Under the pieces are notes generated by a model. The model saw only the letters and a list, made by a program, of their open reading frames with translations. It was not told where the DNA came from and ran no database searches. Below, in pieces: positions 2,873 to 16,715 of a stretch of DNA of 26,681 nucleotides. Position numbers and translations under genes: made by a program. Within the stretch, counting starts at the first letter, position 1. The number at the start of each line of letters is the position of its first letter. The DNA lies in the IMG/VR virus record IMGVR_UViG_3300042507_002553, positions 1-26,681 of that record. One strand, written 5' to 3'. The DNA is from a virus.

Positions 2873-3030
2873 CTTTAAAAATCAATTACTTACACGCGCC
2901 CCGTTTTTCCAAAACCCCCAAAATCTTGAAGAATAATCCCAATCTTCATTTTGGAACATTTGGAACAAATGGAACAGATTATTTCATTAGCGCAACAACA
3001 CCGCACACCCCCCACAAACCACGCTCAACA

Positions 3031-3048
3031 GCGTATTACCGTAATACG
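3031..3048. repeat. Dispersed palindrome, copy 3 (variant)
   Basis: CGTATTAC-C-GTAATACG, a one-base-centre variant of the family, 17 bp long at 3032-3048. It is adjacent to copy 4, so the two form a tandem pair just upstream of promoter P2. Confidence 0.8.
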
Positions 3049-3049
3049 G

Positions 3050-3067
3050 CCGTATTATCTAATACGG
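3050..3067. repeat. Dispersed 18-bp palindrome, copy 4
   Basis: CCGTATTATCTAATACGG. The outer bases are swapped as a pair (C...G instead of G...C), which keeps the symmetry. It is about 65 bp upstream of the -35 element of promoter P2. Confidence 0.9.
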
Positions 3068-3132
3068 TTTGGCTATCTCCTTACCCCGAAACAAATACAT
3101 CACCAAAAACATCAAAAATCGGTGAAACACAG

Positions 3133-3160
3133 GGAACTAATCCCGTTTTGACTTGTCTAA
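3133..3160 (+). promoter_or_regulatory. Sigma-E (ECF)-like promoter P2
   Basis: GGAACTA (3133-3139), 15 bases, GTCTAA (3155-3160): the same elements and spacing as P1 (1603-1630), with the same downstream extension ACTATAT. The spacer sequence differs, so the shared parts appear selected. Transcription would start near 3166-3168, directly into the candidate structured RNA and then toward the gene at 3821. Confidence 0.55.
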
Positions 3161-3197
3161 CTATATAGGACGGATAAAAACATACGGCGCAAGCCAA

Positions 3198-3215
3198 GCG
3201 TATTAAGTAATACGC
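3198..3215. repeat. Dispersed 18-bp palindrome, copy 5
   Basis: GCGTATTAAGTAATACGC, identical to copies 1 and 2. It lies about 30 bases downstream of the predicted P2 start, at the 5' end of the candidate RNA. Confidence 0.9.
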
Positions 3216-3582
3216 AGTTTCGATCCCTCCACGATCCTACAAGCCGCAAGCCGGTAGTAGGCGAAGGCGCGGTGGACAGAGCCGCGACGTACCGATGGCA
3301 AGGTACGGTGTCCCCATATCAAGGGTGACGAGTGGGCATGACTCGGGGATGTACTCCCTCAATGCCATAGGACTGCAAGGCGACAAGTCGGTTTGAGTAG
3401 GGTTCAGCCAGAAGCCAGAAGTGCGACTGACCGTAACTAAAACACTCTACACCTACCCCATGAGCATGATTCGTGCGTGGACGGTGCGGAAGTCGGCAAC
3501 GTGAAACAACCTAGGCCAAGCAGTCCACAGCCGATACGGGTGGGCAACGTACACCCGGCAGCGTTAAGGGCATGAGGCGAGA

Positions 3583-3600
3583 GCGTATTAACTAATACGC
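3583..3600. repeat. Dispersed 18-bp palindrome, copy 6
   Basis: GCGTATTAACTAATACGC. It sits inside the candidate structured RNA, between its central and 3' helices. Confidence 0.9.
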
Positions 3601-3820
3601 GAGGCAAGGTGGACACAACCACTAAGCCGAAGCCGCCCTGAGTATCTGCCTACAAAGTTGTGAGCCGCGAAGAGCGAGTGAGCAACCTAGCGGTGATTGT
3701 CGGGTTCGTTTTGCGGAGCTTTCAGTCATCGCGTGGTTGTTTATTTTATTTGGTGATGCGTGAGTGGGAAAAAATACCCCTTGGTGAGCAATAAGATTGG
3801 GATTATTCAGGAGGTAGCAA

Positions 3821-4039
3821 ATGATCCGTAAAGACTACAAATGGCCTAGCACAGGCCGCCGTCGCCGCGAGGCAAGGGTTAAGAAGTTTTCAGAGGCGTT
3901 TCTATTCGCAGCGTGTCTGAATCTGGTGGGGGTGTCCCTCGCCGTCCTAGTGCCACAAGGTATGTGGGTTTATCTGTTTGCCTTTGCCGTTGGGGTGACG
4001 GGCGTAAGCGTGATGGTGATGAACTTCTTTAAAGAGTGA
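3821..4039 (+). CDS. Small membrane protein
   Basis: This is a 72-residue protein with a very basic N-terminus (RRRREAR at 13-19, then KK) and two predicted membrane helices (about 26-44 and 48-68), separated by a short PQG turn. The positive-inside rule places the N-terminus in the cytoplasm, so it would be a hairpin in the inner membrane. The ATG is preceded by a strong GGAGGTAGCA ribosome-binding site. It is the first gene of the long rightward array, after the noncoding region. Its role is unknown; two-helix phage membrane proteins include superinfection-exclusion and holin-like proteins, but nothing here distinguishes those. Confidence 0.8.
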   Translation: MIRKDYKWPSTGRRRREARVKKFSEAFLFAACLNLVGVSLAVLVPQGMWVYLFAFAVGVTGVSVMVMNFFKE

Positions 4040-4049
4040 GTGTCGAACT

Positions 4050-4247
4050 ATGTGGTGCGTAGCGTGTCGAATAGAAAAGGTCGCAGCCAAGCGCGTCGAG
4101 GTGGGATTCATTACCTGCCTACGCTGTGGCGAGGCAGATGCGAAGAAAGTGAAGTGGTGCGTGACGATCACAGCGCACAAGGGTGCATACGGTGTCGTGC
4201 GTGATAAGGCGATGCTGAAACAACTAAACAAGTACGCGAAAGCGTGA
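4050..4247 (+). CDS. Small zinc-finger protein
   Basis: This is a 65-residue basic protein with CxxC at residues 3-6 and CLRC at 23-26, which would make a four-cysteine zinc site. The layout (two CxxC pairs, then a KKVKWCVTITAHKGAYGVV strand and a short helix) resembles small phage zinc-ribbon proteins of the DksA-like or unknown type. It begins ten bases after the membrane-protein stop; no strong ribosome-binding site is visible (GAGTGAG). Its stop codon abuts palindrome copy 7. Function unknown; nucleic-acid binding is possible. Confidence 0.75.
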   Translation: MWCVACRIEKVAAKRVEVGFITCLRCGEADAKKVKWCVTITAHKGAYGVVRDKAMLKQLNKYAKA

Positions 4248-4265
4248 GCGTATTAATTAATACGG
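4248..4265. repeat. Dispersed 18-bp palindrome, copy 7
   Basis: GCGTATTAATTAATACGG, a perfect core with unmatched outer bases. It starts on the base after a TGA stop, and its right arm runs into the GGAGG ribosome-binding site of the gene at 4277. A folded hairpin or a bound protein could therefore affect translation of that gene. Confidence 0.9.
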
Positions 4266-4276
4266 AGGACGTAGCG

Positions 4277-4447
4277 ATGGGCAGAAAAGTAACGAACCAA
4301 ATCCTGAACGATATCGACGAGGGTTTGCTGGACAGGGACGAGGTGATCATGGCGTGCCTCAAGTACATGAGCGAGGACGAGGTAGCAGACATGGCTCATG
4401 TGAATGAGTTTTATCAAGACGATGAAGACGAGGAGGACGAGGAATGA
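4277..4447 (+). CDS. Small acidic phage protein
   Basis: This is a 56-residue protein with a helical KVTNQILNDIDEGLLDRDEVIMACLKYMSEDEVADM core and a strongly acidic tail (QDDEDEEDEE). I have seen this family, with the MACLKYMSEDEVADM signature, as an uncharacterised protein in many phages. I chose the ATG at 4277 because GGAGG lies ten bases upstream; an in-frame ATG at 4244 would place the palindrome inside the coding sequence and lacks a ribosome-binding site. The stop overlaps the next ATG by four bases. The acidic tail suggests protein or DNA-mimic interactions (speculative). Confidence 0.75.
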   Translation: MGRKVTNQILNDIDEGLLDRDEVIMACLKYMSEDEVADMAHVNEFYQDDEDEEDEE

Positions 4448-5975: not shown

Positions 5976-7058
5976 ATGAGTAGCAAGACAATCAATTTCA
6001 ATACACCGGTGGAACTGAACGATGTTCCGAACCTGATCGCAACGATTGGCACGATTCGCACAATCTTGCTGCGTGGTGAGCCGGGTATCGGCAAGTCCAC
6101 GGTGTTGACGAACCTTGAGTCGGTCATGGGTAATGGCTATGACTATATCTACGGAGACTGTCCTGTGCTGGATGTGTCCGACGTAGTGATGCGGATACCG
6201 AACCACGAGACTAAAACGTTGGAGTCTTACGTGTCGGAGTTGTTCAAGTTGGACAGCCCGAAGCCGAAGATCATCATGCTCGACGAGGTGACGAAGGCCA
6301 ACAAGTTGCTTCAGGTTATCTTTACTCGCCTGATGCTTGAACGTACGGTCGGTGATGTTAAGTTGCCTAACGGATCAATCGTGTTCGCAACAGGTAATAA
6401 CGTCTCTGATGGTGTGGGCGATACGCTGTCAGCGCACGTGTTGAATCGCTTGTGTGTGATCAATGTACGCAAGCCAGACGCCCGGCGTTGGGGTGTGTGG
6501 GCAACCGATAACGGTGTCTCCCGTCAGGTTCGTGCATGGGTAGCGATGCACTCTAACTGTCTCGCGTCGTATCTTGATGGTAGTCAGGAGAACAATCCGT
6601 TTATCTTCAATCCGACGAAGCCGATCACATCGTTCGTCACGCCCCGGTCATTGGTCGGTGCGGATAGCGTCGTCAAGAATGCTAACAAACTAGGTTCGTA
6701 CGTGACTCAGGCAGCCTTGGCCGGTCTGTGTGGCGGCGCGTTCGCGGAATCTATCGCAGCGTTCATGTCGATGGAGAAGGAGTTGGTGTCGGTCAGTGAC
6801 ATCATTGCCAATCCGCAGACGATTCAGATTCCCGAGAAACCGGCGGCGTTGTTTATGACGATGTTTAACGCAGTCGATACTATCGAGACGCAGGATGATC
6901 TGTCGGCGTTCATGACTTTCGTGAAACGTATTCCATCCGATGAGGTCAAGACTTGCTTCTACTCGATGGCGTATGAGTCCAAGCGCACTGCGAAGTTGGC
7001 ACGTAACAACAACGAGTTGCGTGAGTGGGGTGCGATCAATCTTCCGTTACTGATGTGA
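5976..7058 (+). CDS. MoxR-type AAA+ ATPase
   Basis: This is a 360-residue ATPase of the MoxR/AAA_5 type, chaperone-like enzymes that usually act with VWA proteins to remodel or insert metal into partners. Walker A is GEPGIGKST (34-42) and Walker B IIMLDE (99-104). A sensor-1 like VFATGNN follows, then a polar NVRKPDARRWGVW segment where an arginine finger would sit. The C-terminal half is helical, as expected for the lid. It has an ACGAGGTAGCA ribosome-binding site and is followed, after one 59-residue gene, by the metallopeptidase-like/VWA gene, the classic partner. The identity of the ATPase is secure; its target in the phage is unknown. Confidence 0.88.
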   Translation: MSSKTINFNTPVELNDVPNLIATIGTIRTILLRGEPGIGKSTVLTNLESVMGNGYDYIYGDCPVLDVSDVVMRIPNHETKTLESYVSELFKLDSPKPKIIMLDEVTKANKLLQVIFTRLMLERTVGDVKLPNGSIVFATGNNVSDGVGDTLSAHVLNRLCVINVRKPDARRWGVWATDNGVSRQVRAWVAMHSNCLASYLDGSQENNPFIFNPTKPITSFVTPRSLVGADSVVKNANKLGSYVTQAALAGLCGGAFAESIAAFMSMEKELVSVSDIIANPQTIQIPEKPAALFMTMFNAVDTIETQDDLSAFMTFVKRIPSDEVKTCFYSMAYESKRTAKLARNNNELREWGAINLPLLM

Positions 7059-7066
7059 GGTGTCAG

Positions 7067-7246
7067 ATGGAAATATTTATAACGAGGCGTGAGGTCTACG
7101 GTACAGAAAGGTTTTATCCAGACTGTCCGAAGGCCGCACTGTTAGCGAGACTTGCACATCGTCAGACATTCAGTCGGCGTGAGTTGCAGTTGATCAAGGA
7201 ACTTGGCTACGAGATCGTGGTCAAACAAAACGAGGTGGCAATATGA
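7067..7246 (+). CDS. Small hypothetical protein (59 aa)
   Basis: This small basic protein sits between the AAA+ ATPase and its VWA partner. I place the start at the ATG at 7067 because TGAGGTGTCAG lies directly upstream; an earlier in-frame ATG lies inside the ATPase gene. The segment FYPDCPKAALLARLAHRQTFSRRELQLIKELGYEI is helical with a possible winged-helix-like feel. The stop overlaps the next ATG by four bases, so it is co-translated with the VWA gene. Function unknown. Confidence 0.7.
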   Translation: MEIFITRREVYGTERFYPDCPKAALLARLAHRQTFSRRELQLIKELGYEIVVKQNEVAI

Positions 7247-8439
7247 ATGCTGTTATGCGTGAAGTAGATATGGAAACGCGGTTGAAGAAGGCGAACATCA
7301 AACTGATTCGTCATCCTGAGACTTGCTTGTATGGTGGTGTCATCCTGATGGGTGAGACTTCTCTTATTGATGACGAGCGCAAGTGTCCGACAGCGTACAC
7401 CGATGGGTTCAACAAGCGATACGGCAGAAAGTTTTTGGAGAAGTTGACCGACGAAGAGATTGCCGGTGTCGTGTTGCACGAGACCCTGCACGTGATGCTC
7501 AAGCACATTCCCCGACATCGTGACTTGATGAAGGAGAACGGTAGGCTTGCCAACATTGCGATGGACTACGTGGTGAATGACATTATCGTGGAGGTCTACA
7601 AGAAAGATCCGAAGTTGCTGAAACTTCCCGAGGATTGCTTCTACGATTCGATGTTCCACGGGTGGTCGGTGCGTCGTGTGTATGAGTATCTGAAGAAGGA
7701 GCAGAAGGAGAACAAGGACGGCAAGCGTCCCCAAGAATCCTTTGACTCACATGACGAGTCGGCTATCGGTGAGATGGAGCCGGGTGAGATCGAGGAGGTC
7801 AGCCGTCAGATCGACGAAGCGATTCATCAGGGTGGGATGTTGGCCGGTCGGTTCGGTGCGAAGATCCCCCGTGTCATCCAGAATATGATGGAGCCAGACA
7901 TCGACTGGCGCGAGGTGTTGCAGGACTTCTGGACGGCGAACGTCCGAGGCAAGGACGAGATGACATGGCGACGGTTCAACAAGAGCCGTGTGGCCGATGG
8001 GTATTACTTGCCTAGCACTGTGACCGAGACTATCGGTGAAGTTATTCTGGCTATTGATACGTCCGGTTCGATTGATAACGACGACATCGCCAAGGTCGCA
8101 GCGCGTGTCCAAGAGTTGTGCGATACGTTACCCCCTGAGCGTATCCGTGTGTTGTGGTGGGACACCGAGGTGCATGGTGAGCAGGTGTTTGAGGGCGATT
8201 ACAACAACCTGTCATCCATGTTCAAGCCGATGGGCGGAGGTGGCACGAAGGTTAGTTGCGTGAGCAAATACATCACCAACAATAACCTGAACGCAGACTG
8301 CATGATCGTGTTCACGGATGGCTACGTGGAGAGCGACATCACGTGGACTACGCATATCCCCCCGGTGTGGATCATTAAAGAAGACGGCAAGGAAACTTTC
8401 GAACCGCCCCGAGGTCAGAAGGTTGTGATGAAGGCGTGA
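7243..8439 (+). CDS. Metallopeptidase-like / VWA domain protein (DUF2201 type)
   Basis: This is a 398-residue two-domain protein. The N-terminal domain carries HETLH at 79-83, an HExxH zinc-protease-like motif. The C-terminal VWA domain carries the MIDAS motif DTSGS (272-276), plus a GGGGTKV threonine loop and VFTDGYVE. This domain order is that of the predicted metallopeptidase/VWA family (DUF2201, COG3864). A charged linker with many glutamates lies at about 150-185. Known families pair such VWA proteins with MoxR ATPases, and that is the arrangement here. The GAGGTGGCA ribosome-binding site and ATGA overlap support the start. Whether the HExxH site is catalytic is not shown. Confidence 0.85.
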   Translation: MNAVMREVDMETRLKKANIKLIRHPETCLYGGVILMGETSLIDDERKCPTAYTDGFNKRYGRKFLEKLTDEEIAGVVLHETLHVMLKHIPRHRDLMKENGRLANIAMDYVVNDIIVEVYKKDPKLLKLPEDCFYDSMFHGWSVRRVYEYLKKEQKENKDGKRPQESFDSHDESAIGEMEPGEIEEVSRQIDEAIHQGGMLAGRFGAKIPRVIQNMMEPDIDWREVLQDFWTANVRGKDEMTWRRFNKSRVADGYYLPSTVTETIGEVILAIDTSGSIDNDDIAKVAARVQELCDTLPPERIRVLWWDTEVHGEQVFEGDYNNLSSMFKPMGGGGTKVSCVSKYITNNNLNADCMIVFTDGYVESDITWTTHIPPVWIIKEDGKETFEPPRGQKVVMKA

Positions 8440-13779: not shown

Positions 13780-14023
13780 TGACGATGTGTCTTACCTAGA
13801 CATTAAACCCGAACACGTAATACAAATGCCGCCACAAGAGAAAGTCTGGGCGCAAATTGGGGAGGATTTAAAACTTGCTCATATTGATTGGGAGATCATT
13901 ACAGCGATGGCGAATCAGTTCGACGAAAACCACCGACAAGGCAAACCCAAGTCGCAAAGCGAAGTGATGAGCAAGTTATTAGTATTAGTACGCGAGGAAA
14001 CATGGAAAGAGTGCGGAAAATAA
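13763..14023 (+). CDS. Hypothetical acidic protein (86 aa)
   Basis: This small acidic protein (N-terminus MTSNDDDDVSYLD) has a helical C-terminal half (DWEIITAMANQFDENHRQG, SEVMSKLLVLVREETWKE). It overlaps the glycosyltransferase gene by 17 bases and the oxygenase gene by 22. A GGAG lies upstream of the ATG. No family recognised. Possibly an accessory subunit for one of its enzyme neighbours. Confidence 0.65.
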   Translation: MTSNDDDDVSYLDIKPEHVIQMPPQEKVWAQIGEDLKLAHIDWEIITAMANQFDENHRQGKPKSQSEVMSKLLVLVREETWKECGK

Positions 14024-14655
14024 AGTCACCCCTTGAGCAGCAGATACGGGATAGGATTCCAACACTTGATTACAGCATCGACGACAATGCTGTAGGTGTA
14101 TTTGACGGGATGTTTTCCGAGCAGTACTGCCAGAGTTGGATTAAACATTTTGACAAAGTAGATGCAGCAGGGATGGCCTACTCTCGTGTACAAGGTATGG
14201 ATCACCCATCTCATGTGATGAAAGATCAATCAATAGATTTTGCTAACTGCTCTGTTTATACAAACGATGAATTAAAAATTGAGTGCGCCGGGTTCAATGA
14301 TGTGTTCTGGTCAGCGTGTTACCCACTGTATGTTGAGAAGTATTCAATCTTACAAGCATCAGCTTCGCACAAAATCTATTCGGTTAAACTTCAAAAAACC
14401 CCGCCGGGTGGTGGCTATCATATGTGGCACTACGAGTCGATGACACGGGAACGCGCGAATCGTTTATTGGTATTCATTCTGTATTTAAATGACATATCAG
14501 ATGGTGGTGAAACAGAATTTCTTTATCTAGGTAAACGTGTTCAGCCTAAAGCGGGGCGACTTCTACTTTGGCCAGCCGCATTCACTCATACCCATCGTGG
14601 TAACCCTCCGTTGAAAGATAGCAAGTACGTTATGACCGGGTGGGTAGAATTTTAA
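14002..14655 (+). CDS. 2-oxoglutarate/Fe(II)-dependent oxygenase
   Basis: This is a 217-residue oxygenase that would hydroxylate a protein, nucleic acid or glycan substrate using 2-oxoglutarate and iron. The metal-binding part is GGYHMWHYE (H143, E145, an HxE in place of the common HxD). It is followed by LVFILYLNDISDGGETEFLY, a hallmark of the prolyl-hydroxylase-like group, and FTHTHRGNPP (H196 or H198 as the second histidine, with a nearby basic residue for 2-oxoglutarate). I chose the ATG at 14002 (GAGGAAAC upstream); the longer in-frame start lies inside the previous gene. Environmental phages often carry such enzymes beside glycan genes. The substrate is unknown. Confidence 0.85.
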   Translation: MERVRKIKSPLEQQIRDRIPTLDYSIDDNAVGVFDGMFSEQYCQSWIKHFDKVDAAGMAYSRVQGMDHPSHVMKDQSIDFANCSVYTNDELKIECAGFNDVFWSACYPLYVEKYSILQASASHKIYSVKLQKTPPGGGYHMWHYESMTRERANRLLVFILYLNDISDGGETEFLYLGKRVQPKAGRLLLWPAAFTHTHRGNPPLKDSKYVMTGWVEF

Positions 14656-16046: not shown

Positions 16047-16170
16047 TCCGGAATCTTTTCGGTCACACAAGTACAAGTTCGGTCAGTGCCGGTCTATCGA
16101 GGCTTTGAGATTGGCAGGGTTCATAGAGACGGGTAAAGGGTGGAAATTCATTAGGGTGGTTAACACATGA
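15991..16170 (+). CDS. Small zinc-finger protein (59 aa)
   Basis: This short gene overlaps the previous one by 56 bases and the next by four (ATGA). It encodes a basic protein with C10-x2-C13, then a histidine and a further cysteine (CTECKRKFASPESFRSHKY, FGQC). That spacing resembles a C2H2/C2HC zinc finger, and the basic composition fits nucleic-acid binding. The remainder (LAGFIETGKGWKFIRVV) looks like a small folded tail. GAGG lies about 17 bases upstream. The zinc pattern makes a real gene likely. Confidence 0.7.
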   Translation: MTVAVKERKCTECKRKFASPESFRSHKYKFGQCRSIEALRLAGFIETGKGWKFIRVVNT

Positions 16171-16715
16171 TTTACTCAGGCGCGGGGCCACTGCCCCGAC
16201 ACACATATTGCTACGTTCAGCCACACGCTTTCGGTAACGAAGATTGGCTGCGCGTGTCGTGGTTTGGTTTAGTCAGTCATCCCGGTCGTACGTGGGGATG
16301 CCATGTAATGCTTGAATGCGGAGCGGTGTACCGCAACGTGCCACTGCATCAACTGACGCACAAGATTACAACTACATCACTAGATTGGAAACCGGGCGAC
16401 AGCCAGACATGGGATTGCTACGGCCATCACTTCAGCATGGTGGAGTATCCGTTTCTTGAAGGAGTGCCTTTGCGCGTTCGCTTGCGATCTAAAATAGAAT
16501 TGACTGGCCGGTATATGTTTACCGCCATACCTATGCTCGATGGGTTTAGTTTAGAACCGGAGCAGTCGAAGGAGTTCTACTTCATCAAGTTGGACAACGG
16601 CAGGTTCACGGCACAGCCCACTAATCACATTCTCGTGCAGGATAAGTCTTTCATCACGGCATCCGAATGGCCTAGATTGGAACGGCAAACGGACACATGG
16701 AGCGTAGACCCATGA
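16167..16715 (+). CDS. Hypothetical protein upstream of DNA polymerase (182 aa)
   Basis: This 182-residue protein is rich in tryptophan, histidine and tyrosine (YCYVQPHAFGNEDWLRVSWFGLVSHPGRTWGCHV, then DSQTWDCYGHHFSMVEYPFLEGVPLRVRLRSKIELTGRYMF). The alternating hydrophobic strands suggest a beta-sandwich. No known motif is seen. It overlaps the DNA polymerase start by four bases, so the two are co-translated, which hints at a replication accessory role (inference). Confidence 0.7.
   Translation: MIYSGAGPLPRHTYCYVQPHAFGNEDWLRVSWFGLVSHPGRTWGCHVMLECGAVYRNVPLHQLTHKITTTSLDWKPGDSQTWDCYGHHFSMVEYPFLEGVPLRVRLRSKIELTGRYMFTAIPMLDGFSLEPEQSKEFYFIKLDNGRFTAQPTNHILVQDKSFITASEWPRLERQTDTWSVDP

Follow-up and report, generated by a model that had tools for sequence, protein, structure and literature searches.

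The window analysed here is a whole IMG/VR virus record of 26,681 bases. A partial terminase gene lies at its left edge on the minus strand, and its right side carries, on the plus strand, replication-type genes for an AAA ATPase, a DUF2201 VWA protein, DNA polymerase A, a PD-(D/E)XK exonuclease, an SNF2 helicase and a primase-like DUF927 protein. The metallopeptidase-like VWA/DUF2201 protein (7243-8439) adjoins the MoxR-like AAA ATPase (5976-7058); its family bears the label 'HNH endonuclease' in PHROGs and in some phage records, a label without Pfam support. Two stretches, 13888-14655 and 16167-16715, hold host-type metabolic genes, whose products are a 2OG-Fe(II) oxygenase and a member of a ferredoxin-labelled PHROG. 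Neither a tRNA nor a tmRNA gene (the latter sought with ARAGORN) was detected in the 26.7-kb window. No convincing gene lies between 2.4 and 3.8 kb, and this space contains, on the plus strand from 3166 to about 3750, what is almost certainly a conserved structured RNA of about 580 nt. The features of the locus are as follows.

2582-2968, no strand: A+T-rich stretch with microsatellites and 10 TTGTTCCAA-like repeats in both orientations (repeat scan)
3052-3065, no strand: operator-like palindrome GTATTATCTAATAC, upstream of the promoter, with a degenerate second copy at about 3032-3050
3133-3138, plus: -35 element GGAACT of a sigmaE (ECF)-like promoter, kept across homologues
3155-3160, plus: -10 element GTCTAA; predicted start at about 3166-3168
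3166-3751, plus: whole RNA (leader, 5′ domain, central cassette, 3′ domain, terminal hairpin, U-rich tail), with predicted ends
3198-3215, no strand: operator-like palindrome GCGTATTAAGTAATACGC, just past the start site
3232-3390, plus: 5′ domain (structural alignment)
3232-3234/3388-3390, plus: closing pairs Z of the 5′ domain
3236-3240/3257-3261, plus: hairpin A of the 5′ domain, with a at 3243-3246/3252-3255
3268-3272/3282-3286, plus: hairpin B of the 5′ domain
3288-3293/3302-3307, plus: hairpin C, loop AUGGCAA
3310-3315/3323-3329, plus: hairpin D, loop NUAUCAA
3330-3366, plus: H-type pseudoknot (covariation)
3330-3333/3341-3344, plus: pseudoknot stem E, GAGU/ACUC
3335-3339/3362-3366, plus: loop-to-downstream helix PK, in which GGCAU in the E loop pairs with AUGCC 3′ of hairpin F
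3346-3349/3355-3358, plus: hairpin F, between the PK strands in the pseudoknot block
3391-3527, plus: central cassette of the window's own type, for which no homologue was found
3538-3650, plus: 3′ domain (structural alignment)
3538-3542/3552-3556, plus: hairpin H, loop GGCAAYRUA
3557-3561/3646-3650, plus: helix I of the 3′ domain
3567-3571/3635-3639, plus: helix J, which holds a variable insert
3583-3600, no strand: operator-like palindrome GCGTATTAACTAATACGC, inside the J insert, doubling as an RNA hairpin tip
3657-3661/3682-3686 (span 3657-3686), plus: hairpin K, with inner pairs L at 3666-3668/3674-3676
3690-3697/3725-3732 (span 3690-3732), plus: terminal hairpin T, with both-side changes in 6 of its 8 pairs
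3734-3751, plus: U-rich tail UGGUUGUUUAUUUUAUUU, GUGxGUGUUUA-like in relatives; a possible terminator or processing site

The RNA consists of a constant 5′ domain, an exchangeable centre and a constant 3′ domain that ends in a strong hairpin and a U-rich tail. Four hairpins, an H-type pseudoknot and closing pairs make up the 5′ domain. The region 3166-3760 folds with an energy of -226 kcal/mol, compared with -197 kcal/mol for dinucleotide shuffles (z = -4.47), and none of 100 shuffles folds as well. A preliminary description of this DNA had proposed a large structured phage RNA in a gene-free stretch at 3168-3740. A fold that beats all shuffles and strong covariation spread over the helices bear out the RNA, which runs slightly further, to about 3750. 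No plausible gene is seen; the longest stop-free runs in the RNA region extend for only 45-70 codons, in frames that differ from homologue to homologue. The repeated loop-like words that had been pointed out are correctly placed (GGCAAGGT at 3297 and 3603, GGCAACGT at 3495 and 3543), but only the copies at 3297 and 3543, which lie in the loops of the conserved hairpins C and H, are conserved; those at 3603 and 3495 are not. The two dispersed palindromes, GCGTATTAAGTAATACGC at 3198-3215 and GCGTATTAACTAATACGC at 3583-3600, are indeed present, and the pseudoknot suggested as possible proves real, backed by covariation. Its E and PK helices change in step, with PK reading GGCGU/ACGCC, AGCGU/ACGCU or UGCGU/ACGCA in relatives and CGCGC/GCGCG or GCAGU/ACUGC in clades without hairpin F. 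A long-range CUAG/CUAG pairing of the cassette end with 3687 is not claimed, as its 3′ side is invariant and the pairing is broken in two homologues. No self-complementary loop of the kind expected for homo-kissing is conserved across the aligned homologues.

About 30 syntenic homologues of the RNA were found in IMG/VR, all of them on metagenomic phage contigs of one uncultured lineage. A 21-base word from the region led to one relative, and the neighbouring proteins led to many syntenic contigs, in many of which the region is retained at 60-88% identity (blastn). Searches with conserved words brought in more records as well as a divergent clade (L205, L206, L217, L220 and L227), and four distinct conserved words converge on a single set of about 30 records; the last conserved word gave as new loci only chance hits in coding sequence. 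The larger records with the RNA carry one copy apiece, and one related record has none. Outside this set, the 18-base core word has 56 matches in bacterial genomes, none accompanied by the neighbouring conserved word and all attributable to chance, and the named phage and plasmid collections hold no relative by DNA similarity, only one 30-base chance match. A covariance model (R1) run over 79 related loci for distant members returned only two records, both already known. Some relatives keep the promoter and the position yet lack the RNA body. In relatives such as L105, nothing but the promoter and a short terminal hairpin is present, so the RNA is optional or dispensable; in L105 (7780-7910) the site is either empty or the product of a natural deletion.

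A structural alignment of 28 records (24 distinct rows), in which the 5′ and 3′ domains were aligned via conserved anchor words, supports 74 base pairs in 15 helices, with 98.1% of 1,707 pair cells canonical in the 24 rows. Pairs with changes on both sides are present in 13 of the 15 helices. Covariation is uninformative for helix I and pairs Z, which are almost invariant. G-U far exceeds A-C in the paired cells (100 versus 6), which identifies the folded molecule as plus-strand RNA. The independent evolutionary events behind the covariation are modest in number and come from a handful of main clades, so a tree-aware test weighs more than raw counts. Such a null was generated with our own script on the R-scape principle, not with R-scape, by shuffling substitutions along a FastTree tree. 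Against it, 8 of 73 pairs, located in A, C, D, H, J, PK and T, reach E < 0.05, and at the strictest threshold (all column pairs) 5 structure pairs pass, compared with none of 24,458 other column pairs. Since the columns of D, E, F, PK and T had been placed with the helix in mind, two checks were run on ordinary MAFFT alignments. In hairpins A-D, 96.7% of cells are paired, compared with 80.7% when shuffled and 26-54% with slid partners, and 16 of 23 pairs show both-side changes; in the pseudoknot block, the corresponding values are 96.4%, 83.9% and 30-51%. Covariation thus exceeds a phylogeny-aware null, as is expected of a conserved structured RNA. The covariation that the preliminary description had sought in homologues is strong and widespread, and neither outcome that it regarded as damaging, an absence of covariation or a conserved reading frame, was encountered.

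The centre of the RNA follows a different course. The stretch between GACAAGUCG and AGCCGRUACGG varies from 99 to 201 nt, and its history differs from that of its flanks. At least three cassette types occur in the relatives, and the window has a fourth, unique one. The window and L087 are 98% identical in both the 5′ and the 3′ domain, and their centres are unrelated (z = 0.5). In L107 and L098, flanks of 100% and 92% identity enclose centres with 38% identity, and in L205 and L206, flanks of 97% and 90% identity enclose centres with 39%. Conversely, L098 and L206, which belong to different clades with different promoters, have a centre in common (71%, z = 16). Exchange of the centre by recombination is the natural reading of these sequence comparisons. 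The consensus folds of the centres show both-side changes in 12 of 34 pairs for type I, 8 of 33 for type II and 17 of 62 for type III, and all three types contain more non-canonical cells than the constant frame. A search for the window's own centre elsewhere gave seven exact 17-base matches, all within one unrelated prophage gene.

The promoter was correctly positioned in the preliminary description, with a start at about 3166-3168, but is of sigmaE-like rather than sigma70 type. Its layout is GGAACT-N16-GTCTAA, and nearly every close homologue retains GGAAC and GTCTAA as the spacer diverges. The sigmaE promoter consensus is GGAACTTTT/GTCAAA (PMC1804206). With a GGAACTT-like -35 element, a GTCTAA-like -10 element and about 16 nt between them, the promoter conforms in sequence to the sigmaE (ECF) type. 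It resembles the sigmaE-dependent promoters of RybB and MicA (PMC1804206) in its elements, in its similar spacing and in driving a non-coding RNA, and differs from them in being phage-borne and repeated elsewhere in the window. Further sigmaE-like matches, GAAC-N17-GTCTAA, stand at 1604, 4742 and 10481 with identical spacing, all on the plus strand, and the sigmaE-like promoters are likely to form a phage-wide class. In L205, L206, L220 and L227, the RNA is instead preceded by a sigma70 promoter, TTGACT-N17-TATAAT. In the L090/L093/L094 group, a second sigmaE-like promoter (GAACTCCACCGAACGGTGACGGTCTTA; L090, 7259-7290) follows the first promoter and precedes the RNA body. A phage single-subunit RNA polymerase was considered as the reader of the promoter and rejected, given that the 962-residue candidate is a DUF927/primase-like protein and no polymerase.

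Nine exact copies of the palindrome GTATTANNTAATAC are distributed over the window (1550, 2323, 3052, 3200, 3585, 4250, 4836, 8442 and 10513), and 13 sites have at most two mismatches, compared with 0.66 expected. They are mostly intergenic, and some lie immediately 5′ of ribosome-binding sites. Other palindromes occupy equivalent places in relatives, as expected of immunity-specific operators. A palindrome is found near the RNA start in the clades examined, and its letters are clade-specific: the sites past the start point and in loops read GTATTANNTAATAC in the window's clade, GCCATTANNTAATGGC in L090, GTATCANNTGATAC in L096 and L105 and CCTGACANNGTCAGG-like sites in the divergent clade. In L106, the palindrome is placed in the loop of stem E. 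Repeated, mainly intergenic and clade-specific sites are the pattern of repressor operators or stoperators, which these palindromes resemble. Cluster A mycobacteriophages carry many repressor-type stoperators across the genome, with an immunity-group-specific sequence (PMC6550527, PMC9283540). The palindromes, as distinct from the RNA, share with them the many genome-wide sites and the group-specific sequence, and differ in being symmetrical and in lying, in several cases, in or beside the RNA gene. A search of nine records for an integrase, an HTH_3 repressor or an ECF sigma factor gave nothing above cut-off.

At the 3′ end, the U tract that follows the terminal hairpin is interrupted, and a simple terminator scan does not call hairpin T and the U-rich tail as an intrinsic terminator; termination at hairpin T is for this reason only a prediction. 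At the tip of this hairpin, a GGTCTGAYTGGAYTCTTKAA-like unit is duplicated in L111 and L112 relative to L113 (L112, 3270-3370). At the other end of the locus, 10 of the window's 13 matches to the TTGTTCCAA-like repeat fall in 2582-2968, a stretch that we infer to be a candidate replication origin beside the RNA gene.

What might this RNA do for the phage? We propose that it acts in trans as an early scaffold RNA, a role for which we judge the prospects to be evenly balanced. Early transcription would start at the sigmaE-type promoter (sigma70-type in one clade) beside the putative origin, and a phage DNA-binding protein bound to the palindromes at and inside the RNA gene would hold transcription off. 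The constant frame would fold compactly into a scaffold, either by itself or together with protein or further copies of the RNA, as in GOLLD and ROOL, and this scaffold would display the central domain to a target that varies from host to host or from one competing phage to another. A target that varies with the host or the rival phage would explain the swapping of cassettes. Action in trans is preferred over action in cis because the promoter, the palindromes and the first downstream gene change between clades and the RNA stays.

The main rival, since the RNA sits between the promoter and the operon, is a cis-acting leader. The RNA would then be the 5′ part of an early operon transcript and would control polymerase passage or mRNA processing in the manner of an attenuator or of a put-like antiterminator, control being exerted at hairpin T. 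The next operon gene follows the RNA with no clear promoter in between, an arrangement that also fits a leader; in the records examined, the RNA separates the first gene from the operon promoter, the promoter-gene arrangement persists in relatives that lack the RNA body, and in L090 the palindrome and ribosome-binding site of the next gene start some 20 nt 3′ of the RNA. However, the constant domains are far larger and more numerous than in known leaders of such type, the first downstream gene varies between clades as the RNA remains constant, and the U tract after the terminal hairpin is interrupted. We regard a leader as a serious contender, though an unlikely one.

A role at the adjacent iteron-rich stretch, where the RNA would regulate or prime replication or its transcription would activate the origin, is rather improbable. 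The concentration of the repeats just upstream, the clustering of palindromes near them and the short repeats (GTACAA) upstream of the RNA in L205 and L220 of the divergent clade are in keeping with it, but transcription is directed away from the repeats, unlike that of a ColE1-type primer, L105 has similar upstream DNA and no RNA body, and the origin itself is only putative. Slightly less probable still is a counter-defence or decoy RNA, a special case of the trans-acting scaffold, in which the cassette would vary so as to fit host systems or escape them. Different lineages exchange cassettes at one position of the frame, as a module under changing selection would be expected to do; against this, the RNA is similar to no Rfam RNA. 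That the region is a DNA feature (an origin, packaging or repressor-binding region) merely resembling an RNA is scarcely credible despite the operator-like palindromes within it and the iterons upstream, as it is already contradicted by compensatory changes in helices outside the palindromes, by the excess of G-U over A-C that fixes the strand as RNA and by a conserved promoter with a matching start.

Beyond the trans-acting scaffold, we tentatively put forward a wider idea, possible though doubtful, in which the RNA is a chassis: two constant folded end domains would hold an exchangeable centre that recombines between distinct phages and sets specificity against hosts, defences or rival phages. 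If this is true, the chassis RNA would be the RNA counterpart of proteins that swap recognition domains. The swapping of cassettes suggests that recognition or targeting by the RNA is variable, and this is directly testable. Furthermore, a compact set of relatives with natural presence and absence, promoter replacement and cassette exchange offers ready comparisons for functional study. To our knowledge, only few large ornate phage RNAs are known, and little is understood of what the best-known of them do; the RNA described here is a good new test case for the role of giant phage RNAs.

How does it relate to such RNAs? The 4,227 models of Rfam 15, including those of GOLLD and ROOL, which the preliminary description had wished to see compared, gave no family match in the window at the gathering threshold, nor when the cut-off was relaxed to E = 10 for 2900-4300 and to E = 5 for five homologous loci; relaxed thresholds yielded only chance miRNA, Sodium and isrG matches. 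The RNA is not GOLLD, ROOL or an intron, because no Rfam model matches it. By covariance model, it belongs neither to GOLLD nor to ROOL, and likewise not to the group I or group II introns, RNase P, tmRNA or other Rfam families. Of the two identities left open at the outset, a new class is supported and a divergent GOLLD or ROOL is not. A literature search, to which subscription papers and preprints contributed little, found no description of such an RNA.

GOLLD is often longer than 800 nt and often lies near phage tRNA genes, is induced during lysis and forms a 14-mer nanocage; ROOL has conserved kissing loops and assembles into cages. GOLLD is further described as a large ornate phage RNA of unknown function with one conserved and one less conserved part, and the solved ROOL example, of phage origin, has 659 nt, pseudoknots and a linker that is variable between homologues (PMC12286853). 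Our RNA resembles GOLLD as a large ornate phage RNA with a conserved and a variable part. It differs in its length of about 580 nt, in a variable part that is central between constant domains at both ends and in the GOLLD trait of nearby phage tRNA genes, as the 26.7-kb window holds no tRNA. With ROOL it shares a similar length, pseudoknots, a phage origin and a variable segment; unlike ROOL, it comes without an Rfam match, a tRNA island or kissing-loop evidence and has a frame of its own, built from hairpins A to D and the H-type pseudoknot. The RNAs nearest in kind to this one are GOLLD and ROOL; it is filed under neither, and the comparison supports its placement as what would be a further class of large phage RNA with its own fold.
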